A DNA stretch of 64,000 nucleotides from Polycladomyces abyssicola (GCF_018326425.1 NZ_AP024601.1:2282001-2346000); one strand, 5' to 3'; numbered from the stretch's first letter, positions 7,911-29,603 are shown. The notes: a model not told the origin generated them from the sequence alone. Numbers and translations: made by a program.

Positions 7911-7923
7911 ATCCCTCCTCAAC

Positions 7924-7947
7924 CAGTTGTATCTTACCTGTCTACAA
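7924..7947. promoter_or_regulatory. Candidate operator (left site of the divergent intergenic region)
   Basis: The segment contains TTGTATCTTACCTGTCTACAA, whose ends TTGTA/TACAA are mirrored. The core CTTACCTGTC recurs in reverse orientation at 8051-8068 and, less exactly, at 24879-24902 in front of the ceramidase-like operon. It overlaps the predicted transcript start of the aminotransferase operon, as a repressor site would. The GntR-type regulator at 26074-27527 is the nearest candidate binder. Confidence 0.4.
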
Positions 7948-7975
7948 ATTTATCCAATCCCTCCCTAGGTGTCAA
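7947..7975 (-). promoter_or_regulatory. Sigma-A promoter of the aminotransferase operon
   Basis: On the minus strand a perfect -35, TTGACA (7970-7975), is followed after 17 bp by TAAATT (7947-7952). The expected transcript starts about 25-30 nt before the ATG at 7910, within the candidate operator at 7924-7947. Confidence 0.6.
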
Positions 7976-8000
7976 TTGAATGTTCTGAAGTTTTCCCCGA

Positions 8001-8027
8001 TTGACGAAGTAGGAATGTTATGATAAT
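8001..8027 (+). promoter_or_regulatory. Candidate promoter of the sugar ABC importer
   Basis: TTGACG (8001-8006) is followed by GATAAT (8022-8027) with a 15-bp spacer, slightly short. An alternative -10 at 17 bp (TAATTT) is weaker. It faces away from the aminotransferase promoter. Confidence 0.4.
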
Positions 8028-8050
8028 TTTCCCATAGATGACCATATACA

Positions 8051-8068
8051 TGTAGGAGACAGGTGAAG
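8051..8068. promoter_or_regulatory. Candidate operator (right site, inverted relative to 7924-7947)
   Basis: TGTAGGAGACAGGTGAAG is the inverted counterpart of the left site (common core GACAGGTRAG). It sits about 25-35 bp downstream of the predicted -10 of the importer promoter, about 100 bp before the start codon. Confidence 0.35.
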
Positions 8069-8167
8069 GGAGAGGATGGACCAAAAGGGGGTCAACACGA
8101 TTTCATCGTCCACCAGCCTTACTGTCTGGTCACGGCATGATCGATATGAAATGAAGGAGTGATGAGG

Positions 8168-9472: not shown

Positions 9473-9541
9473 TGCTTCGTATGTGAAACTACAGAACCGA
9501 TCGTTCAGGGACGTGTTTTCCCGCCTTCCGTCAACTGTGCC

Positions 9542-9578
9542 GATGCACCCCGACGGGAAAACCGTCCCTTGTTGCATC
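9542..9578 (+). other. Hairpin between binding-protein and permease genes
   Basis: GATGCA (9542-9547) pairs with TGCATC (9573-9578), and GACGG with CCGTC inside. There is no T-run. Hairpins here commonly stabilise the binding-protein message and partly block read-through, giving more binding protein than permease. The rest of the 9473-9740 gap shows no gene. Confidence 0.4.
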
Positions 9579-9740
9579 AACCGTTGTTTCGGATGTGACT
9601 GGTGATTACTGTCCACATTGCTTTCCCGGCTCGCTCTACCTGCACCCTGGGAGCGAGCGAAAAGAGACTACCCGAATAAATCGCTTTACCTGACACACCC
9701 TTATCGACCGCTTTTCATCTTCGTAAAAGGAGGCGATGTG

Positions 9741-10682
9741 ATGTCGATGCCCACACCGACACAACCGGTCCCGCAGTCGCAAGTCCCCCCTCGACCCCGT
9801 ACCCGCCTTGGCCTCCGCCGTTTTCCCTGGGTGCCGTATTTGTTTTTGCTACCGGGGGTGGCGTTTTTCGTTATATTTGACTACATCCCGGCATTCAACG
9901 CTTTGTATCTCTCGTTCACAAAATATCACGTACTCTCTCCACCTGAGTGGGTGGGACTGGAAAACTATCACGACATGCTGAATGATCCATCGTTCTGGAA
10001 GGCGCTGAAAAACTCATTTGCCTATATGGTGATCATGGTTCCCATGTTGGTGGTAATCCCGCTATTTCTCGCCATTCTGGTCAATCAAAAACTGAAAGGC
10101 ATCCATCTCTTCCGCGTCGCCTATTACCTACCCGTCGTCACGTCGATGGTCACGGTCTCGATCACGTGGAACTATCTCTATCACGAAAGCGGTCTTCTTA
10201 ATTATCTGCTGATCACGTTGGGGATTTTGTCCAAACCGATCAGTTGGCTGTTGGACGTGAACACGGCCATTTTTGCTGTGGCTCTCGTGGAATCTTGGAA
10301 ATCGATGGGCTTTTACATGATCATTTATCTCGCGGGTTTGCAGTCCGTTCCGCAGGATCTGATCGAAGCGGCCCGGGTGGACGGTGCCAACCGGTTGCGA
10401 ATCATATGGCACGTCATCATCCCGATGTTGCGGCCGTTTGTCGCTTTGTGCGTGGTCATGGCTGGCATGGGTTCGATGCAGGTGTTTACCAGTGTGTTCA
10501 TGCTGACCCAGGGCGGACCGCTGGACAGTACGACCAATTTAACGTATTTGATCTACGATCTCGCTTTCCAAAAGCTGAACATGGGCTACGCTAGCGCGGT
10601 CGGTATGGTGCTGTGGGTGATTCTATTGGTATTGTCCATATTGAATTTTCGACTGTCCCACGGAGGTGAACGCATGCAATGA
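9741..10682 (+). CDS. Sugar ABC transporter permease (MalF-type)
   Basis: 313 residues, about six transmembrane helices after a proline-rich cytoplasmic N-terminus. The ATPase-docking EAA loop appears as EAARVDGANRLRIIWHVIIP. With the next gene it forms the membrane channel of the importer. The ATG at 9741 has AAAAGGAGG 7 nt upstream; the longer frame from 9618 has no ribosome binding site. The stop overlaps the next start in ATGA. Confidence 0.9.
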   Translation: MSMPTPTQPVPQSQVPPRPRTRLGLRRFPWVPYLFLLPGVAFFVIFDYIPAFNALYLSFTKYHVLSPPEWVGLENYHDMLNDPSFWKALKNSFAYMVIMVPMLVVIPLFLAILVNQKLKGIHLFRVAYYLPVVTSMVTVSITWNYLYHESGLLNYLLITLGILSKPISWLLDVNTAIFAVALVESWKSMGFYMIIYLAGLQSVPQDLIEAARVDGANRLRIIWHVIIPMLRPFVALCVVMAGMGSMQVFTSVFMLTQGGPLDSTTNLTYLIYDLAFQKLNMGYASAVGMVLWVILLVLSILNFRLSHGGERMQ

Positions 10683-11524
10683 CCCACAAAAGATGGAGCC
10701 GGTTGAAGCGGATGGCGAAAACCGCAGGGATGTATGTTGTGCTTACGGCGATCGCCTGTCTGTTCGTCGGCCCTTTCATCCTGCTGATCTCCACCGCCTT
10801 CAAATCGGACAGTCAGCCGGTGTTCAGCTTTCCGCCACAGTGGATTCCCGATCCGCCGGTATGGGACAACTTCCATCAGGCGTGGAACGATATCCCGTTC
10901 CCTCGTTACATGTTTAACTCGTTTTTCCTGGTTGGCGTCATGGTGCCGCTACACCTTTTTCTTGCATCCATCACTGCTTACCCGCTGGCACGGATGCGTT
11001 TTTTTGGACGAAACTTCATCTTTTACGGGATTATCGCTACGATGTTTATTCCACCCGAAGTGATGTTGATTCCGCGTTTTCTCTTGGTTAAAACATTGAA
11101 CATGACCGACAGTTACTGGGGTATTATCATCCCCGGACTTTTGGGGGGATTTGCCGTCTTTCTCATGAGACAGGCCTATCTCGCCATTCCCAGAGAGTTG
11201 GAGGAAGCGGCCATTATCGACGGATGCGATCCTTTTCGCATGTGGTGGAGCATCATGTTGCCGCTGACGGCTCCCACCACCGCTGCTCTCGGCGTTTTTT
11301 CGTTCATCTCTGTGTGGAATTCGTTCATCTGGCCGCTGATCGTACTGAAATCACCCGAGCTTTATCCGTTGTCACTCGGCTTGGCCTACTTGGCCGGCAC
11401 CTTCGGATTTGATGTCAAATCGCTGGCCGCAGGTGCCGTCATCTCGGTCACACCCATCATCATCTTCTTCCTGCTGATGCAACGGTATTTCATCTACGGA
11501 ATGCAGGGTGCAGTGAAAAAATAG
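10679..11524 (+). CDS. Sugar ABC transporter permease (MalG-type)
   Basis: 281 residues, six predicted helices, with the EAA loop EEAAIIDGCDPFRMWWSIML. It is the partner of the preceding permease and translationally coupled to it; GGAGG at 10662-10666 helps initiation. No ATP-binding subunit follows, so the importer probably borrows a shared MsmK/MsmX-type ATPase encoded elsewhere, as many Bacillota sugar importers do. Confidence 0.9.
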   Translation: MTHKRWSRLKRMAKTAGMYVVLTAIACLFVGPFILLISTAFKSDSQPVFSFPPQWIPDPPVWDNFHQAWNDIPFPRYMFNSFFLVGVMVPLHLFLASITAYPLARMRFFGRNFIFYGIIATMFIPPEVMLIPRFLLVKTLNMTDSYWGIIIPGLLGGFAVFLMRQAYLAIPRELEEAAIIDGCDPFRMWWSIMLPLTAPTTAALGVFSFISVWNSFIWPLIVLKSPELYPLSLGLAYLAGTFGFDVKSLAAGAVISVTPIIIFFLLMQRYFIYGMQGAVKK

Positions 11525-14529: not shown

Positions 14530-15582
14530 ATGACCACGAAACAGGTTCGATATGCTCTGGCCGGATGCGGCTCCGTTTCCCAATTTCACGTCCAAGCCAT
14601 CCAATCCATTCCGCAGGCGGAGCTGGTCGCCGTGTTCAACCGGACACCGGAGAAGGCACAATCTATCAGCGAACGAACGGGTGCGGCGCGACATACGGAT
14701 TACGCGGATATGCTGTCCCGTCCGGACGTGGATGCGGTGATTCTCTGCACCGCCAGCGGTTTGCATGCGCCGATGGCTCTGGAAGCGATTGAGGCGGGCA
14801 AACACGTTGTTATCGAAAAACCGCTCGCACTCACATTGGAGGATGCCCGGGAGGTAATCCACTCTGCCAGGGAAAAAGGGGTCACACTATCTGTCATTTC
14901 CCAACGTCGTTTTGAACCGGCCCACCAAGTAGTGAAAAAGATGATCGACCATGGTGAGTTCGGCAAGATCCTGAGCGCCGAGGTACATGTGCGGTTTCAC
15001 CGGACACCGCATTACTATGCCTCAGGGGATTGGCGCGGCACACCCGAGATGGACGGCGGCGCCCTGATGAATCAGGCAATTCATTCGATCGATCTGTTGT
15101 GCTGGTTGTTGGGACCGGTACAATCGGTTTCCGGGGTTGTGCACACGCGCGTTCACGCGATCCGTGCCGAAGACACGGCTGTGGGGTGGGTTCAATTTAT
15201 GGATGGTGCAATTGGATTGATTCAAGGCTCTACCGCCATGTATCCCGGATTCGCCCCGGAACTCCATATCTACGGAGAACGCGGAGCGGTCCGCATCGTG
15301 GGTACCGACATCGTTACCTGGACGTTTGAGGGGAACCAACCACCTCCACCCGATCTCGCCACGTCTGCCGGCACCAGCGGAGCAAGCGACCCCCAAGCGA
15401 TTGGTGCCTACTATCATGAACAACAACTGCGGGATATCACGGAAGCCATACTAGATGGAAGATCCCCGCTCATCACCGGAGAAGACGGCTACCGTGCCTT
15501 GAAGGTCGTTCTGGGCATTTATGAATCGGCGAAAACAGGCCGGACGGTTGTTTTTTCACCCGAACCGGTGACGGGGTATTAA
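14530..15582 (+). CDS. Gfo/Idh/MocA family NAD(P)-dependent oxidoreductase
   Basis: 350 residues. An N-terminal Rossmann domain (YALAGCGSVSQFHVQ) is followed by the family's EKPLALT motif (about residue 98), which carries the conserved Lys and Pro, and a C-terminal alpha/beta domain with DGGALMNQAIHSIDLLCWLLG including the catalytic-type His/Asp. These enzymes oxidise or reduce sugar or cyclitol hydroxyls. AAGGAG is close to the ATG (3 nt), but no better start exists. First gene of a rightward unit with two more genes. Confidence 0.9.
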   Translation: MTTKQVRYALAGCGSVSQFHVQAIQSIPQAELVAVFNRTPEKAQSISERTGAARHTDYADMLSRPDVDAVILCTASGLHAPMALEAIEAGKHVVIEKPLALTLEDAREVIHSAREKGVTLSVISQRRFEPAHQVVKKMIDHGEFGKILSAEVHVRFHRTPHYYASGDWRGTPEMDGGALMNQAIHSIDLLCWLLGPVQSVSGVVHTRVHAIRAEDTAVGWVQFMDGAIGLIQGSTAMYPGFAPELHIYGERGAVRIVGTDIVTWTFEGNQPPPPDLATSAGTSGASDPQAIGAYYHEQQLRDITEAILDGRSPLITGEDGYRALKVVLGIYESAKTGRTVVFSPEPVTGY

Positions 15583-15640
15583 AGAAAATCGGGGAAGCTG
15601 AGGGGGGCCATCCGAATCCGGCAGAAGGAGTGTGCAAAGG

Positions 15641-17248
15641 ATGTTGAAACCCTATTACATCCGTGATATTTTGGGAGATTACGCCGGAGAACTACGGGAA
15701 AGCCAGCCCCGTGCCGACGGCGTTCGCCATGTGGACACGCCCGGCATGATTCAATCCTTACGGGAACTCAACGTCAATACGTACCTCTATTTGATTTGGC
15801 ACGAAAAAACAGACTGGGACGATTTGCGTAAAGAATTCCTGCCAGCAGCCAAACAAGCGGGTATCGACGTGTGGGTATATCTGGTACCCCCCAGCGAATC
15901 CGCCACCAAACGATCGGAACCATACGGTACGGATTATATCGCCTGGGCAGATGCGATCGGTCGTCTCTCCCGCCAATACGATAACTTGAAAGCATGGGCA
16001 ATCGACGATTTCAGCCACAATCTCGGTTTTTACACTCCCGAATACGTGCAGCAAATGCAAAACGCCGCACGTGCGCAAAATCCGTACTTGCAATTTCTGC
16101 CCCAGATGTATTTCCCCGATATCACACCGCAGTTTGTTGATCAGTATGCATCCTGCATTGACGGTATCATCATGGCCTACCGGGACGATCCGTACCGGAA
16201 CACGCAACGAACAGACACCCTGGAAGATCAGCTCGATCATCTAAGCCGTTTGCTGAAACCTTATCAGCTGCCGTACGTATTGATGGTGTATGCCAGCAAG
16301 TTGTCCGCCACACCTGCCAATCCCACACCTCGCTATGTAGAGGAAGTGGTGCGCACCGGACTGTATATGATGACACAGGACCGCGCCCAAGGTGTCGTCA
16401 CCTACGTATTGAAAAAAGAGTTTGAACCGGAACCGTCCGATGACGTCGCTTCTTCCGGCAAGGGGTATTTCAGCTTCTTCGTTCCCGCAGGAACGCCCAC
16501 GCTTGCCGGAGATCGCGCTGAAATCCAGCAAGTGATCCATCCCACCCCCGCTGCCCCCCAACAGAAACTGACATTCTCCCACTATGACACCTACAGCAAC
16601 CTGCTGGGCGCCGGTTATCACTACAAACAAGTATTGATCGATACCCAAGTGGTGTGGGAACAAGATGTGGCCACGGACAGCGATGGAACATGGAAAGAGG
16701 TGACGCTGGACCTCACACCTTACCTCAAGGGAAAACGGGTCGCAACCCTGATATTCCGGCTTTATGACAAACGCGGTGTGTCCAATTTCTGGGTCAATGT
16801 AGGATTTGATCGGATTCGCCCTGTCGGATTTACGCTGCAAGATCCCGACTTTGAGGAAGGTTACGGTTGGACCGTTCGAACCAGCACCCGAAGCATGGTT
16901 GCGGAAAATCTCATCTACAATCCCCAGCGGCAAGCCGATACGTTCGCCGCCGTACAAACAGCCTATCTATTCTATGATTTGTATGCTTCGGCCGTCCGTT
17001 CGACCGACTCTTCGGTGTGGGAACATGTCCGATGTTTGATCGAGATGGCTGATTGCGTATGGAACGGACGGGATCAGGAGGCACGCAGGTGGTTGGAAGC
17101 TTGGTTGTTCGCCTTGTCTAACTACAGCAGTGCTTGGTCGGATCATCACATCGAACACTTCCGCGCCAAAGGAGACAAATTGCGCCGACTGCTGCTCAAA
17201 GCGAAAAAAGCAGAATTGAAGCATCATCTGTCCTCATTGTCACCGTAG
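15641..17248 (+). CDS. Unrecognised 535-residue protein, glycoside-hydrolase-like N-terminal half
   Basis: I do not recognise the family. No signal peptide or membrane segment is seen, so it is probably cytoplasmic. Residues about 1-270 alternate strands and helices like a TIM barrel, with acidic positions at strand ends such as the Asp pair in AWAIDDFSHN and the Asp pair in IIMAYRDDPYR. Residues about 310-400 are strand-rich, like a carbohydrate-binding beta-sandwich. The last ~120 residues are helical. It sits between two sugar oxidoreductase genes, so a role on a sugar substrate is likely but unproven. The ATG at 15641 has AAGGAG 10 nt upstream. Confidence 0.75.
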   Translation: MLKPYYIRDILGDYAGELRESQPRADGVRHVDTPGMIQSLRELNVNTYLYLIWHEKTDWDDLRKEFLPAAKQAGIDVWVYLVPPSESATKRSEPYGTDYIAWADAIGRLSRQYDNLKAWAIDDFSHNLGFYTPEYVQQMQNAARAQNPYLQFLPQMYFPDITPQFVDQYASCIDGIIMAYRDDPYRNTQRTDTLEDQLDHLSRLLKPYQLPYVLMVYASKLSATPANPTPRYVEEVVRTGLYMMTQDRAQGVVTYVLKKEFEPEPSDDVASSGKGYFSFFVPAGTPTLAGDRAEIQQVIHPTPAAPQQKLTFSHYDTYSNLLGAGYHYKQVLIDTQVVWEQDVATDSDGTWKEVTLDLTPYLKGKRVATLIFRLYDKRGVSNFWVNVGFDRIRPVGFTLQDPDFEEGYGWTVRTSTRSMVAENLIYNPQRQADTFAAVQTAYLFYDLYASAVRSTDSSVWEHVRCLIEMADCVWNGRDQEARRWLEAWLFALSNYSSAWSDHHIEHFRAKGDKLRRLLLKAKKAELKHHLSSLSP

Positions 17249-17416
17249 TGTCCTCAAAGGTCACACACAAGAATTCGGCATCCAACTGTAGGATTTTGCT
17301 GACCAACTACTGTCAAAAGCGAGCCGTCTCCAGCCAAGCGACTCTGAAGAAAAGGAGCGAAGGCGGGAGGCGGCTGTTCGTGTCATCAGTCTCGGCTTTT
17401 GCGAGGAGCGATGCAT

Positions 17417-18553
17417 ATGAAAATGGGCGTGATCGGATACGGTCGACGTATTCGCAACATGTTGGCCGAAATCCGGAAAGCGGACACTGATTGCCGCGTC
17501 GTCGCGATTACCGACGTACGTAATGATGAAATTCGCGCGGCCGATCCGTCTTTGAAAGATGTCGCCTTTTACGAGGATTACCGCCTGATGCTGACCGAGA
17601 ACAAATTGGACGGACTTTTGATCGGCACCCGATGTTCCATGCACGCTACCATCGCCGTGGATGTTTTGCCTTACGGCATCCCGCTTTTTTTGGAGAAGCC
17701 GGTCGCCACCCGCATGGAGGATCTCGTTCGGCTGAAAAGCGTGGCCGACTCAACGAATACGCCAGTGGTCGTCTCCTTTCCGCTGCGAACGGCCCCCATC
17801 GTGCAACTGGCCAAGGAAATCGTGAATTCGGGCAGAATCGGGTCAGTTGAACACGTGCAAGCGATCAACAATGTACCCTACGGCGGCGTCTACTACCATC
17901 ACTGGTACCGGGACGAAAACGAAACGGGCGGCCTTTTTCTGCAAAAGGCAACACATGATTTCGACTACATTCAGTATTTGCTGGGGGAACGGAAGCCGGT
18001 CCGGATCTGTGCGGTGACCTCCAAACAAATCTTCAAGGGGGACAAACCGGCCGGGCTCAAATGCCGGGACTGCGACGAACGGGACACCTGTCCGGAAAGC
18101 ATGTATCGTGTCCATCGGGCCGCTCACGAGACACCGGCCGGAGAATACTGCTGTTTTGCTGTGGATACGGGCAACGAAGACTCCAGCAGTGCAATCATCC
18201 AGTATGATACCGGTATGCATGTCGCTTACTCGCAAAACTTTGTCGTCCGTCACCGGGCGGGTACGCGTTCCTGTCGTCTGATTGGATTCCGCGGCACGTT
18301 GGAATTCGATTTCTATACCAATCGCATCACCGTTCATTTGCATCACACCAAGCGCGTGGAAACCCATCAGATCGGAGATGACGGGGAACATTTCGGCGGA
18401 GACGCCGTACTGGCCCGCAATTTTATCGAGGTGATGAGAGGAACGGCCGTCTCCCTGTCGCCCCTGCAGTCCGGATTGGACAGTGCCCTACTCTGCTTAA
18501 AGGCGCGGGAGTCGGCACGCACCCACACATTCCAGGAAGTGAAATGGGATTAA
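17417..18553 (+). CDS. Gfo/Idh/MocA family oxidoreductase with Cys cluster
   Basis: 378 residues. Rossmann motif MGVIGYGRR at the N-terminus, then FLEKPVATR (Lys-Pro motif), then LQKATHDFDYIQYLLG. A distinctive insert, CRDCDERDTCPES, has three closely spaced Cys plus a later CC pair; similar inserts occur in some Gfo/Idh proteins and could bind metal. The ATG at 17417 is 8 nt from GAGGAG; the one at 17411 is too close. The 168 bp upstream (17249-17416) shows no gene. Last gene of the rightward unit, followed by a terminator. Confidence 0.88.
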   Translation: MKMGVIGYGRRIRNMLAEIRKADTDCRVVAITDVRNDEIRAADPSLKDVAFYEDYRLMLTENKLDGLLIGTRCSMHATIAVDVLPYGIPLFLEKPVATRMEDLVRLKSVADSTNTPVVVSFPLRTAPIVQLAKEIVNSGRIGSVEHVQAINNVPYGGVYYHHWYRDENETGGLFLQKATHDFDYIQYLLGERKPVRICAVTSKQIFKGDKPAGLKCRDCDERDTCPESMYRVHRAAHETPAGEYCCFAVDTGNEDSSSAIIQYDTGMHVAYSQNFVVRHRAGTRSCRLIGFRGTLEFDFYTNRITVHLHHTKRVETHQIGDDGEHFGGDAVLARNFIEVMRGTAVSLSPLQSGLDSALLCLKARESARTHTFQEVKWD

Positions 18554-19180: not shown

Positions 19181-20962
19181 TTATGTTCCGTCACCCTGCC
19201 ACCTCTTCAGCGCATCACCCGCCTGCCGCCGGATAAGGTCCAGACGGGAGGCCAGCCATTCTTCGGCATCTCGCGGACGATAAAAGGCAGTAAATAGTGG
19301 CAGCGCCTCCTGTTCCCACTCATCGGCCATCCGTAACGCTTCTTTTACGTATCCGCACACGATGGCAGTTTCCGTTCGTGTACTCCATCCCCTGTCGATC
19401 CGGTATCCATGCTCCAATGCATGTTGGGTCCATAACTGCAAATGGCGCAGTTTGGCCATCATGCGGTACATTTCCGCTTCCCGACGCCGTCGTACGGCTT
19501 GACGGGCTAAAGCCTCCATCGCTTCCGGATCGTCGTACAGCCCGTTGGCATAATGGCCGGGATTGATGCGGTGAAAGGGGATTGTCGTCTTCGTCCCGAA
19601 CAGCCGACGGCTGACGGTATCGTCCACTCTCGTCAAGTCCGGTGGTTGTCCAGTCCAAAAACATTCGGCCGCCAACAGCGCTCCGTACCAGATCACCGGA
19701 AATGGTTCGGTGGGGGGATGGACACTCGTATACCGAGCCCATGCCGTCCCCACCGCCCCATCCCACGAACCAGTGGCCAGACGCTGAGCCCAATCGGCCA
19801 GGTTGTTCGCCCGCACTCTGTAATTGGGCAAATGGAATGCATGTTCATCAGCCCCCTGGATACAACCCGCGCCGAACAGATGAAACCCGAATGTCCGATA
19901 CCGTTCGATATGCCGGTCAATCTGTTGATGAATACGGTCACCGGTATAGTAGCACCAAACCATCAGGGAAATGTTTCGAGACAATTGATCCAGTGACCGG
20001 TCGGACATGCCCCGCAGCATATCGTCCCAGATGACCGGGATTTTCCCGTGTCGTCGCACCAGCTCCGCCATCCGGTTGACATGATGGACGTAATTGGTTT
20101 CGCGGCCGTCCTCCCCCCATCGTTCACGGCACCGGGAACATGCGTGCAAATGGAAGGTTTCATCCGCTCCGAGGTGAATGTGGCGGGACCCTTGGTGTGC
20201 CGCCATCATCCGTTCGACCAATGTTTCCACATAGGCGGCGGCTTCGGGATGAGAGGGGCAGAGATCCCCGATCTGATCCGGCAATTCGCGAAACCGAGCC
20301 CACCGGTCATGACGCAAAATGTAATGCAGGTGACCAAACGTTTGTTGTAACGGCATCACCTCGATGAAGTGATCGTGGGCGACTTGCTGCAGCCGTTCCA
20401 ACTCGGTCAATGTCAACGCATGGGGATGCCGCCACCCTTCATCCCCCCAGGGAACGCGATCCTCATACTCGACCAGCAACAGATTAATCTTGTAACGGGA
20501 CAGTTCGATGATCGCCTCTTCCAAATATGCCGTTGTCGGCACCCCGGCCTTGAAATCCAAGTGAATGCCGCGCAGGGAGACACACGGCTCGTCCTGGATC
20601 ATACATGCGGGAAACCCACCGTCCTCCTCCCGTAACTGTTGCAGGGTGAGCCAACCGTGGTACCATCCCCGGGCGGTGGGAGCAACCAGGCGGATTCCAC
20701 CTTCGTCCACCGACAAGGCATACCCATCCGGATGACGGGGACGCTCCCTTTCCGCGATGGGTGCGGGATCTCCCCATACCAGAGAAAAACCGGATACGGC
20801 TTCCACCCGAACGGTGTCAGAGAGACGGCGCACCTTGCGCATCAGCCGCTCATCACAGGCTGTATCCAATGAAACCGCGGGTGGTTGGGAAGCGTCGGGC
20901 ACAAACTTCCCCGCCCGCAAACAGATCTGCTTGGGTTCGGGCAATAACCGCATCGTATTCAT
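19181..20962 (-). CDS. Glycoside hydrolase family 20 (beta-N-acetylhexosaminidase-like)
   Basis: 593 residues. An N-terminal GH20b-like alpha/beta domain (about 1-130) is followed by the catalytic barrel starting LRGIHLDFKAGVP. The diagnostic Asp-Glu pair is present in LGADETFHL (D267, E268); GH20 uses these for substrate-assisted removal of terminal GlcNAc or GalNAc. No signal peptide, so it acts on imported oligosaccharide. GGGAGG lies 9 nt before ATG 20962, which overlaps the previous stop in ATGA. Last of four coupled genes. A ~200-residue C-terminal extension follows the barrel. Confidence 0.88.
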   Translation of the reverse strand: MNTMRLLPEPKQICLRAGKFVPDASQPPAVSLDTACDERLMRKVRRLSDTVRVEAVSGFSLVWGDPAPIAERERPRHPDGYALSVDEGGIRLVAPTARGWYHGWLTLQQLREEDGGFPACMIQDEPCVSLRGIHLDFKAGVPTTAYLEEAIIELSRYKINLLLVEYEDRVPWGDEGWRHPHALTLTELERLQQVAHDHFIEVMPLQQTFGHLHYILRHDRWARFRELPDQIGDLCPSHPEAAAYVETLVERMMAAHQGSRHIHLGADETFHLHACSRCRERWGEDGRETNYVHHVNRMAELVRRHGKIPVIWDDMLRGMSDRSLDQLSRNISLMVWCYYTGDRIHQQIDRHIERYRTFGFHLFGAGCIQGADEHAFHLPNYRVRANNLADWAQRLATGSWDGAVGTAWARYTSVHPPTEPFPVIWYGALLAAECFWTGQPPDLTRVDDTVSRRLFGTKTTIPFHRINPGHYANGLYDDPEAMEALARQAVRRRREAEMYRMMAKLRHLQLWTQHALEHGYRIDRGWSTRTETAIVCGYVKEALRMADEWEQEALPLFTAFYRPRDAEEWLASRLDLIRRQAGDALKRWQGDGT

Positions 20963-22692
20963 CCGCTATCTCCTCCCACTCGCACATGCGCGTCTCCTGC
21001 CCGAATCGTTCCCCTTACCTCGTAAAAATCAAAACCGTCCATCCGCTTCAACCGGACGCGATCCGCCGTCAAACCCGAGAATGACAGGGGTGGAATCGCG
21101 TGTCCCTGACCGTCCGGAGACAGAATCAGCAGGGTGGCATCCGGTATCTCATGAGGAGACCGGACGCGAATTTCCCACTCGCCTGACTCGTTTTTGCAGC
21201 AAACTAAATCAACCTGACGCCGGAGCCACTCCCAATGATCGATCTCCTCCGCTGTCCACCACACCAGCCCCATTTCTCTCCCCGCCTCAGTCAGGGCAAT
21301 CACCGCCCGCGCCACCTCCGGCTTCGTGTGAATGTGGTGCGGATGAAACAAAAAGTGGGCAACACCGTGATGTCGCATGCACCGATTCAACAAGGGAAAA
21401 CACACCTCAAATGGTACGGTCCACACGAGGTCCTGCGTCAGCAAAGGAATTTCCAACACATCCATTCGCCGCATTCCGTCTCCGGTATCCTCGATCGGGA
21501 ACCATGGATGACAACTGCCGAACAAAAAACCGATATCTCCCCGTTTGGTCGGCCCCTTGGTCTGATCCACCCGAATGCCTCTTCGTTCACACCACCGGTA
21601 AAATTCGGTTCCCCCTTCCCAGCGCAGATAATGGTTTTTGTTGGTCACGATCGGAACACCCGACCGTTCCCGCAACCAACGCCATTGGAAATCGAAATCG
21701 TCCTCCCCCCAACAGGAGCGCGCATCGTCTTTCATCGCATTGTAATGGAGGGCGAGCTCGTGGCCATGAGAACGGATGGCCGTGTAGGTCGCCGGACGAT
21801 AACCGCCCGGATACATCACGCACCATGTTGCCTTTACGTCGGCTTGATCGAGCACCCGTAGTGTCGACATCGCCGCCTCGTCTTCGTTCAAATCGGAGTC
21901 CAACGACAGATGCCCCACCGCAGATACACCACCCGGCCAATACCAGAGCATGGGCAGTGGCACACCCTGACGTCCTGCTCCCCACCAGATGAGACGGATT
22001 AACAAATTCCGCCATTCATCCGCCACCGGCACTTGGAAAAACGGTGCTCCCCCGTCGAACGGTTGTCGGTCCCGTTCCCAATCCAGCACCATTCCGTCTT
22101 CCGCTTTGAGAATCCCATCGTCGATCGGTGCGGTACCATCGGGGGCAGGCACCCCGTCCCGCTTGACCGGTATCCCTTGTTGAATACGGACGACCGTGGT
22201 TGCCACATCCGGTGAAATTGCCACGGCCAGTCCATTTCCCGTTTGCCGTACAGCGATACCGTCCCCCACACTCGCTCCCCGTGAAACGATCGTACCCAGC
22301 GACGTGGCGGTGAGCGCCTTCATTCCAGCGATAGAAAAGGCATGAAGCGGCACATGACATTCCCGGGTGACCGGATGGTCCGAAATTCCCGTCAACCACC
22401 CTTCTTCTTCAACCACACCCGTGTATCGGACGCCCAACACCTCGTCCAAACCCGTGCCGTCCCCGATCTGAATCAACGTGCCTCCCCTATGAACAAAACG
22501 CGCCAATCTCTCACATTCGGCCGCAGAGCACATCGGCCTGCCGACCGACAGCAACACAGCCGGTAAATCCCGCATCGCTTCCGCCACCGTTTCGTGGCGG
22601 GCAAAGGGTAATCCGGCATGAGACAGGATCTCTTCCAGATAAAGAGAATACGACGACACCTTCCCTCTGTCATGTACAAGCAACCCGATCAT
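20959..22692 (-). CDS. Two-domain protein: amidotransferase-like fold plus NodB-like deacetylase
   Basis: 577 residues. The first ~240 residues resemble the class I glutamine-amidotransferase-like fold seen in beta-galactosidase trimerisation domains, with no clear catalytic Cys triad. Residues about 255-480 look like a NodB polysaccharide-deacetylase barrel: HLSLDSDLNE carries the Asp pair and SHGHELALHYN the metal-binding His pair, with LFHPHHIH late. Deacetylation of an N-acetylated sugar is the likely role (inference). Both ends overlap neighbours in ATGA. Confidence 0.75.
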   Translation of the reverse strand: MIGLLVHDRGKVSSYSLYLEEILSHAGLPFARHETVAEAMRDLPAVLLSVGRPMCSAAECERLARFVHRGGTLIQIGDGTGLDEVLGVRYTGVVEEEGWLTGISDHPVTRECHVPLHAFSIAGMKALTATSLGTIVSRGASVGDGIAVRQTGNGLAVAISPDVATTVVRIQQGIPVKRDGVPAPDGTAPIDDGILKAEDGMVLDWERDRQPFDGGAPFFQVPVADEWRNLLIRLIWWGAGRQGVPLPMLWYWPGGVSAVGHLSLDSDLNEDEAAMSTLRVLDQADVKATWCVMYPGGYRPATYTAIRSHGHELALHYNAMKDDARSCWGEDDFDFQWRWLRERSGVPIVTNKNHYLRWEGGTEFYRWCERRGIRVDQTKGPTKRGDIGFLFGSCHPWFPIEDTGDGMRRMDVLEIPLLTQDLVWTVPFEVCFPLLNRCMRHHGVAHFLFHPHHIHTKPEVARAVIALTEAGREMGLVWWTAEEIDHWEWLRRQVDLVCCKNESGEWEIRVRSPHEIPDATLLILSPDGQGHAIPPLSFSGLTADRVRLKRMDGFDFYEVRGTIRAGDAHVRVGGDSG

Positions 22693-23564
22693 CTGGCATT
22701 GGCCCTCTTTGCGGAGACTTTGTCAATGATTGCGCGCAATGTCGCGATATCCGCTCTGGCGCGCTCCACATCAGGCAGAGGCGCATGCGATTCAATCGAC
22801 AAATATCCCGTATAGCCGATCTCCATCAATCCCTCCACCACCGGATGGTGGTCGACATCTCCCTCGCCCAACAACCGCTGTTGGAAATGCTCCATTCCGT
22901 GACGAGTCAAGTTTTGAAATCCGCCGGCCACATCCGAAGAGGGTACCCGCGCCACGTCCTTGATGTGAACATGAAACAGGTGATCTCTCAATTGGTGAAT
23001 GGACGATTTGCCGAAATCCGTATCAGTAATTGCCATATTCCCCGCGTCATGAATCAAACCTACATTGTCCCGGTCCACCAACCGCAGGAAGCGCAGCGCA
23101 TCGTTGACCGTTTCCACAAGTGAACCGTTATGAATTTCGATCATCAATTTGCAACCGTACATCGCGGCGCGATCAGCACACTTTCGGATCCATTCCGCCC
23201 CTTTGAGAAAATGGTACTCGTGCGCGCGAAATGCGTGCGGACCGCCGCATCCCACACGGATGAGCGGACAGTCCAACTCGGCGGCGTGTTCCAAAAAACG
23301 CTCCAATCGTTCCACGTCCCGTTGGCAATCCGCGTCGTTGTCAGTTGAGAAACGACCGAGATACGTGCCGATTCCGATCACAGGCAGTCCGTATTCTTTT
23401 GATAATGCCTTAATCTCCTCCAACCTCGCAGCGGAAGTCTCCTCCGACAAATGCGGTTCTCTTCCGTACAGCTCCACCCCGTCAACGCCTAAGTCTTCAC
23501 ATATGCGAAACGTTTGATGGATGCTCCGGTCTTTAAACAACACCGTAAATACGGAAATCTTCAC
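22689..23564 (-). CDS. TIM-barrel sugar phosphate isomerase/epimerase
   Basis: 291 residues, AP-endonuclease-2-like barrel: GVDGVELYGREPHLS at the start, LMIEIHNGSLVE with a metal Glu, GLIHDAGNMA, HLFHVHIKDVAR with the His/Asp ligands and LSIESHAP at the end. Probably isomerises, epimerises or dehydrates a keto-sugar intermediate. Coupled by ATGA overlaps to genes on both sides, so it is expected to work on the same substrate. It is a paralogue, not a copy, of the barrel at 4362-5222. Confidence 0.83.
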   Translation of the reverse strand: MKISVFTVLFKDRSIHQTFRICEDLGVDGVELYGREPHLSEETSAARLEEIKALSKEYGLPVIGIGTYLGRFSTDNDADCQRDVERLERFLEHAAELDCPLIRVGCGGPHAFRAHEYHFLKGAEWIRKCADRAAMYGCKLMIEIHNGSLVETVNDALRFLRLVDRDNVGLIHDAGNMAITDTDFGKSSIHQLRDHLFHVHIKDVARVPSSDVAGGFQNLTRHGMEHFQQRLLGEGDVDHHPVVEGLMEIGYTGYLSIESHAPLPDVERARADIATLRAIIDKVSAKRANAR

Positions 23565-24835
23565 GATCCTGCCTCCTCTTTTCGCTCGTTCCGCAAACCG
23601 GGGAGCGCGGCGATTCCCCGTTTGACCCGTTCCTCCGTTTCACGGGAAAACGGCGCGGGCAAACCGAAATACATATACGATTCCTCCACCTCGTATCCAC
23701 CTTCATCCACATAACGTGCCGGACATAGATACCCCAAACATCCATTCACATAACCGACGGGGATGACGCGGTGCCGAGGAAAGCGCCTTCTCAGCCACAG
23801 TCCGTATTCCACCGTCATTTCTGCACTGAACCCGTACAGAACGACCCGCTCGCTGATCTGTAGCCGTCCGATGTCCAAGCACGGCTTCCACCCCGTCTTT
23901 TTCCTAACCGACTCCCGCCATGCCGGGTACAGTTGACTTGTTTCGATGTCGGGTAGGAAAGGACGTGGAACGACCGTTTGCAATGGCAGTTCCACCTCGT
24001 GAGAATCGATTGACAAATATGGAAACTCGGTTTCCATTTCTGTCAAGAGACGAATTACCTCCTGCCCCAACAATCGGCCCAACCGTTCCACTTCCGCTGG
24101 ACCCCCGCGGTAGAAAGCACCGCGTTCATCTACCAAGCGCGGTCGGATGTCCCCACAGCATCCCTGCAAAAACATCGCCTTGACACCTGGGATGGCAGTC
24201 TCAATCCTACGACGTGCCGCCCCGGGGTAGTCGGCGGTAAAATGATATCCGCCTGCTACCGTCGGATGACAAGTGTAATGAAACCACAATGACTTCCAAG
24301 TTCCGTCGACACGGCGAAACCCGACCACCGTGACGCAGTCGTCGCGCGGACCGCTCTCCTCCGGTTTCATCACGACTCGACCGTCTTCCTGCCGGCGTCG
24401 GTTGACGCCGAAAGAACAACATCCTTGTGCAGAATATATCCTGACGTCTTCCAAATCGGCGGCGGCCTGAGCCGCCAACCGAAGAACCGTCTGTTTCAAC
24501 CAGATCAGATACTGATCAGACGGTTTCCCCAACACCGGGTGCATCCCCTTTGACGTTTGCGGACCGCTATGTGTGTGCGACGCGGCGAACCACACATCAG
24601 CCATTTGGGAATCTGTCGCCATCCAGACACGGCGAACCTCATCCGACCATTCGGCATCAAACCAGATTACATCCGCCGTGACCATTCCCACGCGTGTGTC
24701 GTCATGTTCGATCACCATCACCTGCATCGTCAACTCATCCCACACGCCTTCCGCTGGACGATCCCGGAACGCGTACCCCGCCATTTCGACCCCGGACGGT
24801 GGAGTAATAGTAGCGGATGCCACTCCCACTCGCAT
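23561..24835 (-). CDS. Neutral/alkaline ceramidase-like amidohydrolase
   Basis: 424 residues. The family signatures are clear: VGVASATITPPSG at the N-terminus, AASHTHSGPQ (metal-binding His pair), HYTCHPTVAGGYHFTADYPG and FLQGCCGDIRP. Neutral ceramidases cleave the amide of N-acyl sphingosine, but many bacterial relatives are much shorter, lack a signal peptide, and have unknown substrates; this is one of those. In the company of a hexosaminidase and a deacetylase it may cut another N-acyl amide. First gene of the coupled unit; the ATG at 24835 follows a G-rich ribosome binding site. Confidence 0.8.
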   Translation of the reverse strand: MRVGVASATITPPSGVEMAGYAFRDRPAEGVWDELTMQVMVIEHDDTRVGMVTADVIWFDAEWSDEVRRVWMATDSQMADVWFAASHTHSGPQTSKGMHPVLGKPSDQYLIWLKQTVLRLAAQAAADLEDVRIYSAQGCCSFGVNRRRQEDGRVVMKPEESGPRDDCVTVVGFRRVDGTWKSLWFHYTCHPTVAGGYHFTADYPGAARRRIETAIPGVKAMFLQGCCGDIRPRLVDERGAFYRGGPAEVERLGRLLGQEVIRLLTEMETEFPYLSIDSHEVELPLQTVVPRPFLPDIETSQLYPAWRESVRKKTGWKPCLDIGRLQISERVVLYGFSAEMTVEYGLWLRRRFPRHRVIPVGYVNGCLGYLCPARYVDEGGYEVEESYMYFGLPAPFSRETEERVKRGIAALPGLRNERKEEAGS

Positions 24836-24902: not shown

Positions 24903-24950
24903 GTATCACCTCTATTTTGAATTATCAAAAATATAACGAAATAAATAAAG

Positions 24951-24987
24951 CGCGAATCACCGCCCTGCGTGATGTCAGGGCGGTGAG
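24951..24987 (-). terminator. Rho-independent terminator of the polysaccharide deacetylase gene
   Basis: CACCGCCCTG (24958-24967) and CAGGGCGGTG (24976-24985) form a perfect 10-bp stem with an 8-nt loop, 19 bp past the stop at 25005. On the minus strand a T-rich stretch (CGCTTTATTTATTTCG) follows. Confidence 0.65.
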
Positions 24988-25004
24988 GGTTGCTCCCGAA
25001 TCGA

Positions 25005-25898
25005 TCAAGATCGCAACTGACCCGCTACTTCTTGAAGAAGGACAAAACGATATCCCCGTTTTTTCAACAGAGGAATCGCTTGGATCACTCCTTCTGCCGT
25101 GTCGCCGTGGGGCATGTTCATGTGCAGAAGAACAATAGAACCGGGTTTGACACTCAACAGCGCCCGCTTCACTTGTACTGTACTGTACGTCGCCCCGGCA
25201 TCACCCAGTACATCGTAGTTGAGCGGCTTCAAACCCAACTGATGCACGATCTGAACAGCGACATCATCGAAATAGGCGGTACCCGGACGAAAAAACATCG
25301 GTTTACGTCCGGTGAGCCGCTCGATTTTCCGTTCATTGATCATCACTTCATCCACCACTTGCCCCACATCCTGAGTCCCGGCTATGCCGTAGGCCGATCG
25401 CCCATCCACCGACAGCGGCTTGTGCAGAAAACCGTGATTTTCGATCTCAAACAGCGGGTTGTGGGCCAATGACTGAAAGAGTTCTGGATTGGCGTCGATC
25501 CAGCGGCTGTTGATAAACAGCGTTGCCGGAATGCGTTGTTGGATCAGATAGTCAATCAATTTTTTGTCATAACCGCTTCCTTCCTTGCCACCGCAGGCAT
25601 CAAAGGTAAGGGCGACGATTTTTTCACTCGTTTCAAACCGCTGGTAGATCCCCGGCATGTGTTCGCCCCACCGTACGGGATGCTTGTTGCCGTATGTTGT
25701 CAGCAATCTTTGTTTCAGCAAAGCGTCATGGGTGGCTTCCTTAGCTTTATGCGTCTGCACATGTACAACCAGAGCAGGATGAGGGTGGTTGGAGGATGGT
25801 TGAGATCGTGCGTGCGAATGGGAACAACCCGCGAGGAACGTCACCGACAACAACCACACTATCCACATGTACCTTTTCTGATGATGCATCACTCTCAC
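25005..25898 (-). CDS. Polysaccharide deacetylase family lipoprotein
   Basis: 297 residues. A signal peptide with a FLAGC lipobox anchors it outside the membrane. The NodB domain shows LTFDACGG (catalytic and metal Asp), IENHGFLHKPL (His pair) and FFRPGTAYFD. PdaA/PdaC-like enzymes deacetylate peptidoglycan or its fragments. The start could be GTG 25898 (AGGA 7 nt upstream) or ATG 25889; both keep the signal peptide. It has its own terminator and is probably not part of the downstream operon. Confidence 0.85.
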   Translation of the reverse strand: MRVMHHQKRYMWIVWLLSVTFLAGCSHSHARSQPSSNHPHPALVVHVQTHKAKEATHDALLKQRLLTTYGNKHPVRWGEHMPGIYQRFETSEKIVALTFDACGGKEGSGYDKKLIDYLIQQRIPATLFINSRWIDANPELFQSLAHNPLFEIENHGFLHKPLSVDGRSAYGIAGTQDVGQVVDEVMINERKIERLTGRKPMFFRPGTAYFDDVAVQIVHQLGLKPLNYDVLGDAGATYSTVQVKRALLSVKPGSIVLLHMNMPHGDTAEGVIQAIPLLKKRGYRFVLLQEVAGQLRS

Positions 25899-26073: not shown

Positions 26074-27527
26074 TTATGTCGTCGGCAATGCCGAACGGCG
26101 TCTCCACTCTTCCGCGATTCTGCGACACGCGACATCAGGCGACTCCACACGGGCCCACATCAAATGCAGTTCATTTTCCAAAAAAGAGAACTGTTCCTCC
26201 GTGACCCCCAAATCCCGAATGGATCGCGCATAGGGCAACACGTCGACAAACACATGATAATGTTCGGGGTGAACGTCAGATCGCCATAGCGTACGATCTT
26301 CCGCTACCTCTTTACGCGCCGGAATCGTACATGATTGCCTCTTGATCTCACACTGCGCTTCCCGACTCGTCAAAAAATCGACCAATGCTTCGGCGGCCGC
26401 CCGGTTGGGCGAGTTCACATTGATGGCCAGACCGTTGCCCAACAACAGTGTCGCCTCTTCGCGTCCCATCGGGGGAGGTAAAGGTCCCAGTCCATCCCCT
26501 GATATCGGAATTCATTCATGAAATAATACGTTGTCAAGATCATCGCCGCACGCCCCCGCATAAACAGATCCTCGGCCAAACGGTTACTTCCATGTGAAAA
26601 AACGGGAACGACGCGATGCTGATACATCAGATCCACACAAAAACGAAGCGCTTCGACATTACGGGGATAATCCAAAAGGAGCGTTCCGTCGGCATCAGCC
26701 AACCGTCCACCGTTTTGCAAAAGGAAAACTGGCCATCGATTGCGGGAAGCAGAGAAACAAAATCCGTACTGATCGCATTCGCCGTCCGGTGTTCGTATGG
26801 AACACCGGCGCGCCGTTTCCACCAACCCCATCCAATCACGAATCGGGTTGGGCCCCCGGATCCCCGCATTTTCCCACATCCGTCGATGATAGCCTATCTC
26901 CACAGGTGAAAAGACAAAAGGTGTGGCATACTGCACCCCGTCGTGTTGAAACATGCTCAATAATTGAGGATAAGACGATTGTTCCCGTTGCATCTCCTCA
27001 GGCAGATACGGATGGAGCTGATGAACCCAGCCTTGCTGAACCCACCGCAGAAAGAAAAAGTCGGGAAGGACGAAAACATCAATGACCGTTTCCGACGCAT
27101 TCCACTCCATCAATGTCTCCACACACTCCGGGGTCGGAATCGGCACCAACTGAACACGTAACATCGGAAACCGCTCTTCAAATCGTTGGAGTAATTGACG
27201 AACCACGGGTAATTCATAGGAAGGGGAAAACCATCCCAGTTTGATCGTGGCCAGACGAATGTCTCCTTTTCGAGGGTAAGTCACCATGTTTCCCCTGCCG
27301 GCGATTTTGAGCAACAATCCCTCGGACACCAGCTCCGACAGCGCCTTTCTCACCGAGCCGCGGCTCAGTTCGTACAGATCGGCCAATTCATGTTCAGATA
27401 GAATGAAGTCCCCGGGCTTCAGTTGACCGGTCACGATTTGATCCCGCAGCGAACGGACAAAACGTTCATACCGTCGGTCAAACGTACTGCGGCGCCGCAG
27501 TTTCGTCACTTTCTCACCTTCATCCAT
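26074..27527 (-). pseudogene. GntR-solute-binding-domain hybrid regulator, interrupted by a one-base frameshift
   Basis: The 5' part (27527 to about 26475) encodes a GntR winged helix (FILSEHELADLYELSRGSVR, about residues 42-61) fused to a family 1 solute-binding-protein-like domain starting near LATIKLGWFSPSYE. At a C5 tract (26471-26475) the frame is lost: the first frame runs to 26415 as nonsense, while the correct continuation (LLLGNGLAINVNSP to the end at 26074) is in the next frame. One added C restores a single ~484-residue protein. It is either a real loss-of-function mutation or a sequence error. Family logic suggests a cytoplasmic sugar sensor controlling the surrounding genes. A GTG at 27509 behind AAGGTGAG is an alternative start. 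Confidence 0.75.
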
Positions 27528-27587: not shown

Positions 27588-28559
27588 TCACATCGTGGCA
27601 GGCGTATCCGAGGGAAACCCTGTCGTCTGACGGGCCAACACCAACGCTCCCACCACACCAGCCTCATCCCCCAGCGCAGCCGGGACGATTTCTACGCCGT
27701 TGCCCACCCCTTGTAATACGAAACGTTGAAACTCGCTTCGGATAAACCCAAACAAACGGTCACCCAACAGAGATACACCACCCCCGATAATTACCCGCTC
27801 CACGTTCAACAGATTCACTGCATTGGCCAGAGCAAAACCCAAATACTTCCCGGCACGTTGGATCGCTTCCCGTGCCAGTGCATTCTGGGCATCAAACGCT
27901 GAGCCGATGCGTTCCACTGTGAGTTCATCATCGTCGAGATTTACCGCCACCCCATCCGCCATCCGTTCCCGTACGAACCGGACCAACGACGGACCCGATG
28001 CGATCGTCTCCAGACAACCGCGATTGCCGCACGTACACGGGATCCCATCAGGATCTACCACCATATGGCCGATTTCTCCTGAACCACCGGTTGCACCTGC
28101 ATAAATGCGACCATCCAACAACATCCCCGAACCAATCCCTGTTCCCAGTGTCAAACATAAAAAATGGCGAAAACCCTTGCCTGCTCCAAATTGATACTCC
28201 CCCAACGTGGCTGCCCGCACGTCGTTATCCACGTGAACCGGCACACCGAAGTGGCTGCGGAACACCTCGGACACCGCCACCTGGCGCCAATTTAAATTGA
28301 CTGCCAACCTCACCACACCACGCTTCGCGTCGACCAATCCCGGAACACCCAAACCGATGCCGCCCAATCGGGAAGCCGGCGTCCCCGTTTCCGCTAACAT
28401 GGCTTCGACCGCATCGATGATCCGCTTGAGCACCCTGGCTGCCCCGTCCGCCGCCAAGGTGGGGATCCGTTTTTTGGCGAACAAGTTGCCATCCCCATCT
28501 CCCAAAGCCATCACCACATTGGTGCCGCCGACATCAATGCCAAGCCAAACCGATTCCAT
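27588..28559 (-). CDS. ROK family sugar kinase
   Basis: 323 residues. N-terminal phosphate-binding motif GIDVGGTNVVMALGD, catalytic Asp in VHVDNDVRAA, LTLGTGIGSG, and the ROK zinc motif CTCGNRGCLE preceded by the His in GEIGH. Phosphorylates a hexose, with glucose, GlcNAc or ManNAc the usual substrates; this would supply the 6-phosphate that NagA and NagB need. No N-terminal DNA-binding domain, so it is a kinase rather than a ROK repressor. GGAG lies 5 nt before ATG, which abuts the preceding stop. Confidence 0.88.
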   Translation of the reverse strand: MESVWLGIDVGGTNVVMALGDGDGNLFAKKRIPTLAADGAARVLKRIIDAVEAMLAETGTPASRLGGIGLGVPGLVDAKRGVVRLAVNLNWRQVAVSEVFRSHFGVPVHVDNDVRAATLGEYQFGAGKGFRHFLCLTLGTGIGSGMLLDGRIYAGATGGSGEIGHMVVDPDGIPCTCGNRGCLETIASGPSLVRFVRERMADGVAVNLDDDELTVERIGSAFDAQNALAREAIQRAGKYLGFALANAVNLLNVERVIIGGGVSLLGDRLFGFIRSEFQRFVLQGVGNGVEIVPAALGDEAGVVGALVLARQTTGFPSDTPATM

Positions 28560-29603
28560 CTACAACTCCACCACCTGGGACAAATGACGCGGGCGATCCG
28601 GATCGTATCCACGACGGATGGCGTAATGCACGCCGAATTGTTGCACAGGCAAAAGGCCGATCAACCCACGGATCCAATCTCCCGCCGTTTCCTTCAGCGG
28701 CGTGTGACGGTCCATGTCGGCAAACAGTTCCGCACTCCCTCCGATCACCCAAACACGCCCACCCATCTGCTTCAATTCCCGCATCAACCGTGGTTCGTAC
28801 TCCCGGCCCCTGTCGGAAGCAAACAAGACGATCAACGTTTGATCATTCACGATCGATTTCGGACCATGACGGTATTCCAGCGGATGATATACTTCAGAAG
28901 GTTGAGCGGCCATCTCCTTTACCTTCAATGCGGCTTCCTGGGCAATTCCGTACAACGGTCCCGCCCCCAAACAAACCACTGTCCGGTAATCTTCTCCGGC
29001 CAAAGCCTTCCCCTCCGCTGCCAGTTGCGACCAATCGGCCGCACAATCTGGCAATCCCGCCAATTCAGCTTGTGCATGCCGATTTTCGCCCAGCAAAGCG
29101 GCACTGACGAGCAGCAGGTACAGCATGCTGGTGAAGGATTTGGTCATCACGACGCTTTCTTCCCGTCCGGCGGGTATTGCCAGCGTATCATCACAACGTT
29201 GGGCCAACGTACTGTCGGGGTGGCAGGTAACGGCCAAAGTACGCAAACCCGGCATTTTTTCCGCCGCTTCCGCCGCCCATAGGCACTCGGTCGTCGTACC
29301 GGACCGGGAGATGATCACCAACAGTGTGCGCTTGCCCGATGCATGCTGATCCGGATATAAAAGCCACTCCGATGCGGGCACGCTTTTGACAGGGTAAGTC
29401 GTCCATTTGGAAAATGCGGCTGCCGCCGAACTGGCAAGATAAAAGGACGATCCGCAACCGGTGAACACCAGTTCCTCGATTCGGCCCGCCGACAACAATT
29501 TGCGCCAAACAGCCTGGGACGAATCACGCGCTTCCCAAACCGTCCGCCATGCCTGAGCCTGCTCCGCCATCTCCTTCATGGTCACCTGACCGGGCAACAG
29601 CAT
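28560..29603 (-). CDS. SIS domain sugar isomerase/deaminase (GlmS C-half / AgaS-like)
   Basis: 347 residues with two SIS domains (about 30-170 and 190-330). FTGCGSSFYLA and ISRSGTTTE mark the first, CLGAGPLYGIAQEAALKVKE the second, followed by YRHGPKS. There is no N-terminal glutaminase domain, so it is not a glucosamine synthase but resembles AgaS/FrlB-type enzymes that isomerise or deaminate amino-sugar phosphates. It could be an alternative to NagB for a different amino sugar. It begins a SIS-ROK-GntR unit. Confidence 0.85.
   Translation of the reverse strand: MLLPGQVTMKEMAEQAQAWRTVWEARDSSQAVWRKLLSAGRIEELVFTGCGSSFYLASSAAAAFSKWTTYPVKSVPASEWLLYPDQHASGKRTLLVIISRSGTTTECLWAAEAAEKMPGLRTLAVTCHPDSTLAQRCDDTLAIPAGREESVVMTKSFTSMLYLLLVSAALLGENRHAQAELAGLPDCAADWSQLAAEGKALAGEDYRTVVCLGAGPLYGIAQEAALKVKEMAAQPSEVYHPLEYRHGPKSIVNDQTLIVLFASDRGREYEPRLMRELKQMGGRVWVIGGSAELFADMDRHTPLKETAGDWIRGLIGLLPVQQFGVHYAIRRGYDPDRPRHLSQVVEL

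Follow-up and report, generated by a model that had tools for sequence, protein, structure and literature searches.

We analysed four overlapping genes in a 64,000-nucleotide stretch of the Polycladomyces abyssicola genome (GCF_018326425.1, NZ_AP024601.1:2282001-2346000; this whole stretch is hereafter the window). These genes, here called the quartet, lie on the minus strand and run from 24835 to 19181; in order of transcription, they encode a ceramidase-like protein, a TIM-barrel protein, a NodB-like protein and a protein of glycoside hydrolase family GH20. We propose that the quartet is probably one transcription unit of a larger island for the intracellular degradation of an imported oligosaccharide that contains N-acetylhexosamine. 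The broader reading of the locus as one of amino-sugar catabolism can be held with high confidence. An importer, a glycosidase, a kinase, a 6-phosphate deacetylase and a deaminase make up the standard logic of such catabolism. In the window, the importer, kinase, 6-phosphate deacetylase and 6-phosphate deaminase all lie within 2296-29603. The quartet itself is an arrangement particular to the genus, made up of genes that belong to a larger conserved sugar-import and amino-sugar locus, and the point of interest is this larger locus, with its pairing of the NodB-like protein and a DegT aminotransferase, rather than the exact quartet.

Gene coupling and conservation in relatives

The analysis shows that the genes are present, coupled and co-localised in a conserved way, and it shows the folds and catalytic residues described below. 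The quartet consists of four real genes: the ceramidase-like gene (23561-24835, 424 amino acids), the TIM-barrel gene (22689-23564, 291 amino acids), the NodB-like gene (20959-22692, 577 amino acids) and the GH20 gene (19181-20962, 593 amino acids). The sequence-only reading had described four ATGA-coupled genes. The coupling and the 4-nucleotide overlap at each junction were confirmed, but only the TIM/NodB and NodB/GH20 junctions are ATGA; the junction between the ceramidase-like and TIM genes is GTGA, and the start codon of the TIM gene is GTG. The same GTGA/ATGA/ATGA junctions are kept in two other species of the genus (loci L023 and L024), whose proteins are 86-96% identical to those of the window. 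Thus, the gene coupling is beyond chance. For the ceramidase-like gene, the ATG at 24835 is preceded by a ribosome-binding site, GAGAGGGGGG, and the TTG at 24928, which would give a longer open reading frame, was disfavoured for this reason. In addition, a crude hydropathy check, which is not a signal-peptide predictor, revealed no hydrophobic N-terminus in any of the four proteins, in agreement with the earlier statement that all of them lack signal peptides.

Conservation was surveyed in 42 genomes of the order, with one weak ceramidase-like match (6e-4) left out. The NodB-like protein was found in 15 of them and the ceramidase-like protein in 10, all of which are among those 15; under free shuffling, with ancestry ignored, the confinement of the ceramidase-like protein to NodB-positive genomes has a probability of 2e-6 by genome and 1.4e-4 by genus. 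The exact quartet is confined to the genus. Outside the genus, 14 Bacillota loci hold the NodB-like gene; in every one it adjoins, on the same strand, the gene for DegT2, a pyridoxal phosphate (PLP) sugar aminotransferase, and 12 of these 14 loci hold a further Gfo/Idh oxidoreductase gene. Furthermore, hexosaminidases of cytoplasmic type recur there: GH123 occurs in the NodB loci of L025, L026, L032 and L034, where a GNAT gene also adjoins the NodB-like gene, and GH20C in those of L027, L029, L033, L037 and L038. Meanwhile, the ceramidase-like gene adjoins nagB in L031, L059, L060 and L061, and ROK-SIS genes in L025, L026 and L032. L025 and L026 each combine all these elements in a single run of about 18 genes on one strand, with 4-nucleotide overlaps between several of them. 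This run holds the importer, Idh2, another Gfo/Idh, GH123, GNAT, NodB, DegT2 and TIM2, as well as Idh1, the ceramidase-like protein, ROK, SIS, a class-II aldolase, NagB and NagA.

These results change the unit that had been put forward. The exact quartet is not supported as the functional unit. Only the genus has it; elsewhere the partners of the NodB-like gene are DegT2 and a hexosaminidase of cytoplasmic type, and those of the ceramidase-like gene are nagB-nagA or ROK-SIS. The co-occurrence expected in relatives is seen for the larger locus instead of the four genes. In addition, the gene set first proposed left out the better-conserved partners, namely the aminotransferases and oxidoreductases.

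Some neighbouring genes in relatives concern acidic sugars. Heparinase II/III-like proteins are encoded near the NodB-DegT2 pair in L029, L030, L033, L035 and L038, which suggests an acidic polysaccharide substrate in those relatives. In L063, the gene for the mannonate dehydratase UxuA (7770-8861) adjoins the locus, and L060 and L061 have other uronate-like genes next to it. UxuA was not found in the P. abyssicola genome by a search that gave matches in control genomes. A uronate-containing substrate, considered on account of the UxuA, KdgK-like and heparinase-like genes near the loci of relatives, was therefore dropped for this species.

The four proteins of the quartet

The GH20 and TIM-barrel proteins exceeded the Pfam cut-offs; the single ceramidase-like and deacetylase proteins of the window fell below them. 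The GH20 protein scored 39.4 against PF00728 (cut-off 22.3, above both Pfam cut-offs), and its HLGADE motif aligns with HIGADE of 8qk1, so that the catalytic Asp-Glu pair is kept. It is thus a candidate cytoplasmic beta-N-acetylhexosaminidase. It is also the sole GH20 of the genome, and GH123 was not found in this genome; both results are consistent with, but do not prove, a replacement of the GH123 or GH20C of relatives by this GH20. The TIM-barrel protein is xylose-isomerase-like (PF01261, 3e-41) and is a candidate sugar epimerase or isomerase. Its nearest characterised structures are IolE, TM_0416 and 3-keto-D-glucoside 4-epimerase, and its best NCBIfam model, of the IolO type, matched below the model cut-off.

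The NodB-like protein was modelled with AlphaFold2 at moderate quality (predicted TM-score 0.63, mean predicted local distance difference test (pLDDT) 58). A fold search with the model placed a CE4-type barrel at about residues 251-494, with matches to 5jmu (Foldseek 7.3e-6) and 3rxz (VIA Z 17.7), and with ChbG and chitin-oligosaccharide deacetylases among the matches. The C-terminus is beta-rich, and the N-terminal part resembles GH42 trimerisation or glutamine amidotransferase (GATase) domains. Amidotransferase activity of the N-terminal domain was considered and rejected because of the resemblance to GH42 trimerisation domains, and a structural or binding role is likelier. In an alignment of 19 members, D265 and D267 of motif 1 are invariant and form an Asp-x-Asp, which would supply the base and metal Asp by positional match; H316 of motif 2 is invariant, and no member has a His at +4. 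By its fold, the protein is a candidate deacetylase of the NodB/CE4 type. In plasmid records, we found only remote, partial matches to it.

The ceramidase-like protein scored 23.9 bits against PF04734, below the cut-off of 32.1. However, PF04734 matches all 10 ceramidase-like members, the best at 5.9e-16, and a profile of the 10 members matched the neutral ceramidase structure 2zws at E = 1.5e-17. Only the profile succeeded; a phmmer search of the Protein Data Bank (PDB) with the single protein gave no match, and an AlphaFold2 model from the single sequence (pLDDT 36) was not used. The residues H87, H89, H190, E339 and Y369 are invariant in the 10 members and correspond to what we take to be the zinc ligands of neutral ceramidase (H97, H99, H204, E411 and Y448), with the mapping of E339 and Y369 depending on a weak second alignment stretch to 2zws. 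The match spans the N-terminal catalytic part only, and the C-terminal part of neutral ceramidase has no counterpart. The catalytic Ser274, whose position was mapped by counting along the 2zws profile alignment, is aligned to R231, and Arg occupies this position in 10/10 members. Judging from this alignment, a ceramidase function is unlikely because of the invariant Arg, and the protein is better described as a candidate zinc amidase. Ceramide, one of the substrates that the sequence-only reading had offered for testing, is disfavoured by the Ser-to-Arg change together with the missing C-terminal part.

The surrounding island in the window

On the minus strand, the island holds a NagA-like N-acetylhexosamine-6-phosphate deacetylase (2296-3471; 189 bits, below the equivalog cut-off) and a NagB-like amino-sugar-6-phosphate deaminase (3443-4570, with the true start probably near 4300). 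The same strand encodes TIM2 (4362-5228), a second TIM-barrel epimerase-like protein that has a 50% identical relative in the L025/L026 operon, and two PLP sugar aminotransferases, DegT1 (5413-6639) and DegT2 (6627-7922). The PLP-binding lysine of DegT2, K211, is invariant among 8 aligned members, DegT1 included. Among solved structures, DegT1 comes closest to deoxy-scyllo-inosose aminotransferases and to AHBA synthase, all of which work on free rather than nucleotide-bound rings.

On the plus strand, there is a sugar ATP-binding cassette (ABC) importer (8159-11524), with a binding protein (8159-9472) and two permeases (9618-10682 and 10679-11524), which is 51-67% identical in relatives. The Gfo/Idh oxidoreductase Idh1 (14530-15582) is closest to 3q2k (215 bits) and 3q2i (205 bits), and the next structure scores 116. 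Both PDB entries carry only "oxidoreductase" or "dehydrogenase" as a label, and we take them to be WlbA 3-dehydrogenases of diacetamido-mannuronate synthesis. A second Gfo/Idh oxidoreductase, Idh2 (17399-18553), is 64-66% identical in the loci of relatives; both Idh1 and Idh2 match glycoside 3-dehydrogenase models weakly, and also DgpA. Between them lies GHx (15632-17248, 538 amino acids), which gave no match in Pfam, NCBIfam or the PDB. Its relatives are 49-93% identical and adjoin a sugar importer in other genomes; they share the invariant acidic motifs AIDDF and AYRDDPYRNT, and some have an apparent signal peptide. GHx is possibly an undescribed glycosidase family.

Beyond the quartet, the minus strand encodes a ROK sugar kinase (27588-28559) and a SIS protein of the GlmD/AgaS kind (28560-29603), a putative amino-sugar-6-phosphate deaminase that scored 167 bits for GlmD and 139 for AgaS, below the equivalog cut-offs. 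NagA, NagB and SIS all fall below these cut-offs; therefore, their exact substrates may be N-acetylglucosamine or N-acetylgalactosamine (GalNAc). The same strand carries a GntR-type regulator fused to a sugar-binding domain (26074-27527), whose reading frame is broken: it occupies two frames here, with the break near residue 395 of the intact L023 copy, and the L024 copy is broken near residue 270. The two distinct breaks suggest that control was lost in two species, or else assembly errors. Directly upstream of the quartet, 25005-25898 encodes another polysaccharide deacetylase, which is lipoprotein-like and of the PdaB kind. A G+C-rich inverted repeat (24947-24990, minus strand), noted by eye, lies between this gene and the quartet and is a weak candidate for the end of the upstream transcript; terminator and promoter scans gave sites no commoner than chance.

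Proposed function, alternatives and known systems

The catabolic direction, the substrate and the order of steps are what we infer from here on. The ABC transporter would import an N-acetylhexosamine-containing oligosaccharide, which would be dismantled in the cytoplasm. GH20 would cut off a terminal beta-N-acetylhexosamine, a role that GH123 or GH20C would fill in relatives, and the ROK kinase, NagA and then either NagB or the SIS protein would convert the freed sugar into a ketose phosphate. Two further proteins, the NodB-like and the ceramidase-like one, may be metal-dependent de-N-acylases for different amino-sugar forms, and the TIM barrel may act as an epimerase on a keto or aldose intermediate. 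The first suggestion, that an imported N-acylated amino-sugar compound is broken down inside the cell, agrees with the importer, NagA, NagB, ROK kinase and GlmD/AgaS-like SIS protein within 25 kb and with the similar clusters of relatives.

The extra enzymes are best explained if the glycan also contains a second, unusual amino sugar. Its amine would be freed by the NodB-like protein and replaced with a ketone by a DegT protein; a Gfo/Idh protein, such as the WlbA-like dehydrogenase, would then reduce this ketone or handle it otherwise. A deacetylase beside an aminotransferase is chemically sensible, because an N-acetylated amine cannot undergo transamination. From gene order and family membership, we tentatively suggest that deacetylation, transamination and redox chemistry at one carbon may run as the WbpB/WbpE/WbpD pathway in reverse. 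The wider idea is at least as speculative: N-acetylated amino sugars of rare kinds, for example 3-acetamido sugars from bacterial polysaccharides, might be catabolised in the cell by this reversed pathway on unactivated sugars, with a new deacetylase family of altered metal site and a sugar-acting deacylase of ceramidase fold. Bacterial surface polysaccharides commonly contain rare amino sugars, diamino sugars among them, yet we know of no described pathway through which bacteria feed on these sugars. A literature search found no description of this gene set, which is weak evidence of novelty, as subscription journals were mostly outside its reach. If the idea is true, such a route would supply enzymes that strip or recycle rare amino sugars. 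Two poorly understood protein groups would also gain sugar-related roles: cytoplasmic ceramidase-fold proteins in which Arg replaces the catalytic Ser, and GATase-CE4 proteins without the usual metal pair.

Several results weigh against the catabolic proposal. First, outside the genus GH20, the TIM barrel and the ceramidase-like protein are not strictly linked to the NodB-like protein. Second, the metal triad of CE4/CE18/CE21 enzymes includes a second His that the NodB family lacks; therefore, the activity of this family is not assured. Third, the Gfo/Idh protein most often tied to the NodB-like protein was not found in this genome, in which Idh1 and Idh2 are present. Fourth, UxuA is absent here; therefore, substrates may differ between species. 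Finally, three Planctomycete metagenome-assembled genomes (L040, L041 and L042) have NodB-like relatives that are 42-43% identical, as close as those in other Bacillota, without such a locus, and no DegT neighbour was recognised in the available DNA. This suggests horizontal spread or an older role.

Among the alternatives, a 3-keto-glycoside route without transamination fares best, although we consider it unlikely. Here, Idh1 and Idh2 would oxidise an intact glycoside at C3 and the TIM proteins would epimerise or eliminate, as in YcjS-YcjR-YcjQ of Escherichia coli. The published ycj cluster is a precedent, and the weak matches of Idh1 and Idh2 to glycoside 3-dehydrogenase models and DgpA, and of the TIM barrel to the 3-keto-D-glucoside 4-epimerase 6wn6, are in its favour. 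However, the 6wn6 similarity is weak (41 bits, below the IolE and IolO types), and the link to DegT is left unexplained.

Next comes ordinary use of chito-oligosaccharides, with deacetylation of imported chitobiose in the manner of ChbG or archaeal Dac, GH20 and the Nag pathway, and with the aminotransferases and oxidoreductases unrelated. All of NagA, NagB, the GlmD-like SIS protein, ROK and GH20 are present, the fold matches of the NodB-like protein point the same way, and two GH18 genes occur elsewhere in the genome. However, chitin does not need the constant NodB-DegT2 tie. Relatives also have an FBA/TBP aldolase, and their hexosaminidases belong to GH123 and GH20C, both of which include GalNAc-active enzymes; we regard this explanation, too, as improbable.

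A biosynthetic role has about as little likelihood and ranks third. In this case, the WlbA-like dehydrogenase, DegT and the GNAT acetyltransferase of relatives would supply an envelope polymer with a 2,3-diamino sugar, and the deacetylases would trim that polymer. Enzymes of the Idh1 and DegT kinds take part in the synthesis of UDP-2,3-diacetamido-2,3-dideoxymannuronic acid, the GNAT gene stands beside the NodB-like gene in four relatives, and PelA and Agd3, which have a similar layout, are biosynthetic. However, neither the island nor the loci of relatives held a recognisable glycosyltransferase, nucleotidyltransferase, sugar-nucleotide 2-epimerase or exporter, which argues against synthesis. 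These loci hold importers, NagA/NagB, ROK, SIS and glycosidases instead, and the proteins lack the signal peptides of exported-polymer deacetylases. The breakdown of sphingolipids or glycolipids by a true ceramidase and a glycosidase is very improbable: the neutral ceramidase zinc site is conserved and some GH20C enzymes act on glycosphingolipids, but the invariant Arg, the restriction to the N-terminal catalytic part, the missing signal peptide and the position of the gene next to nagB-nagA all speak against it.

The catabolic proposal has several known counterparts. The Thermococcales pathway of chitin deacetylase and glucosaminidase, and ChbG of E. coli, deacetylate imported amino-sugar oligomers inside the cell. 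The island resembles this route in that proposed step and in a GlmD-type deaminase, but here the glycosidases are N-acetylhexosaminidases and aminotransferases are added. The nag/aga/gam clusters share NagA, NagB or an AgaS-type SIS protein, a kinase and an importer, as well as the class-II aldolase found in relatives; agaS encodes the galactosamine-6-phosphate deaminase of E. coli (PMC3668189). Unlike these clusters, the island has an ABC importer and a ROK kinase in place of the phosphotransferase system, and also candidate de-N-acylases of CE4 fold and ceramidase-like type, DegT, Gfo/Idh and TIM epimerases.

At the protein level, the NodB-like protein aligns with PelA (CE21) over 424 residues (Z 14.9, root-mean-square deviation 5.8), and it shares with PelA and Agd3 (CE18) a layout in which a CE domain is preceded by an N-terminal GATase-like domain and followed by a beta-rich region; its Asp-x-Asp corresponds to D528/D530 of PelA. 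However, it is cytoplasmic, lies in catabolic loci and is without the second metal His in 19/19 members. Similarly, the ceramidase-like protein keeps the five zinc ligands of the neutral ceramidase PaCD (2zws), but differs from it in the Arg for Ser274, the unmatched C-terminal part, the cytoplasmic location and the link to nagB-nagA.

Finally, the WbpB/WbpE/WbpD (WlbA/C/B) pathway to a 2,3-diacetamido uronic acid uses a 3-dehydrogenase of the Gfo/Idh family and a PLP aminotransferase on one carbon (PMC10622841). The island is alike in its PLP aminotransferases and in Idh1, which is closest to WlbA-type structures. However, a deacetylase stands here in the place of the acetyltransferase, in a setting of import and hydrolysis, and this difference suggests a pathway that runs in the reverse direction.

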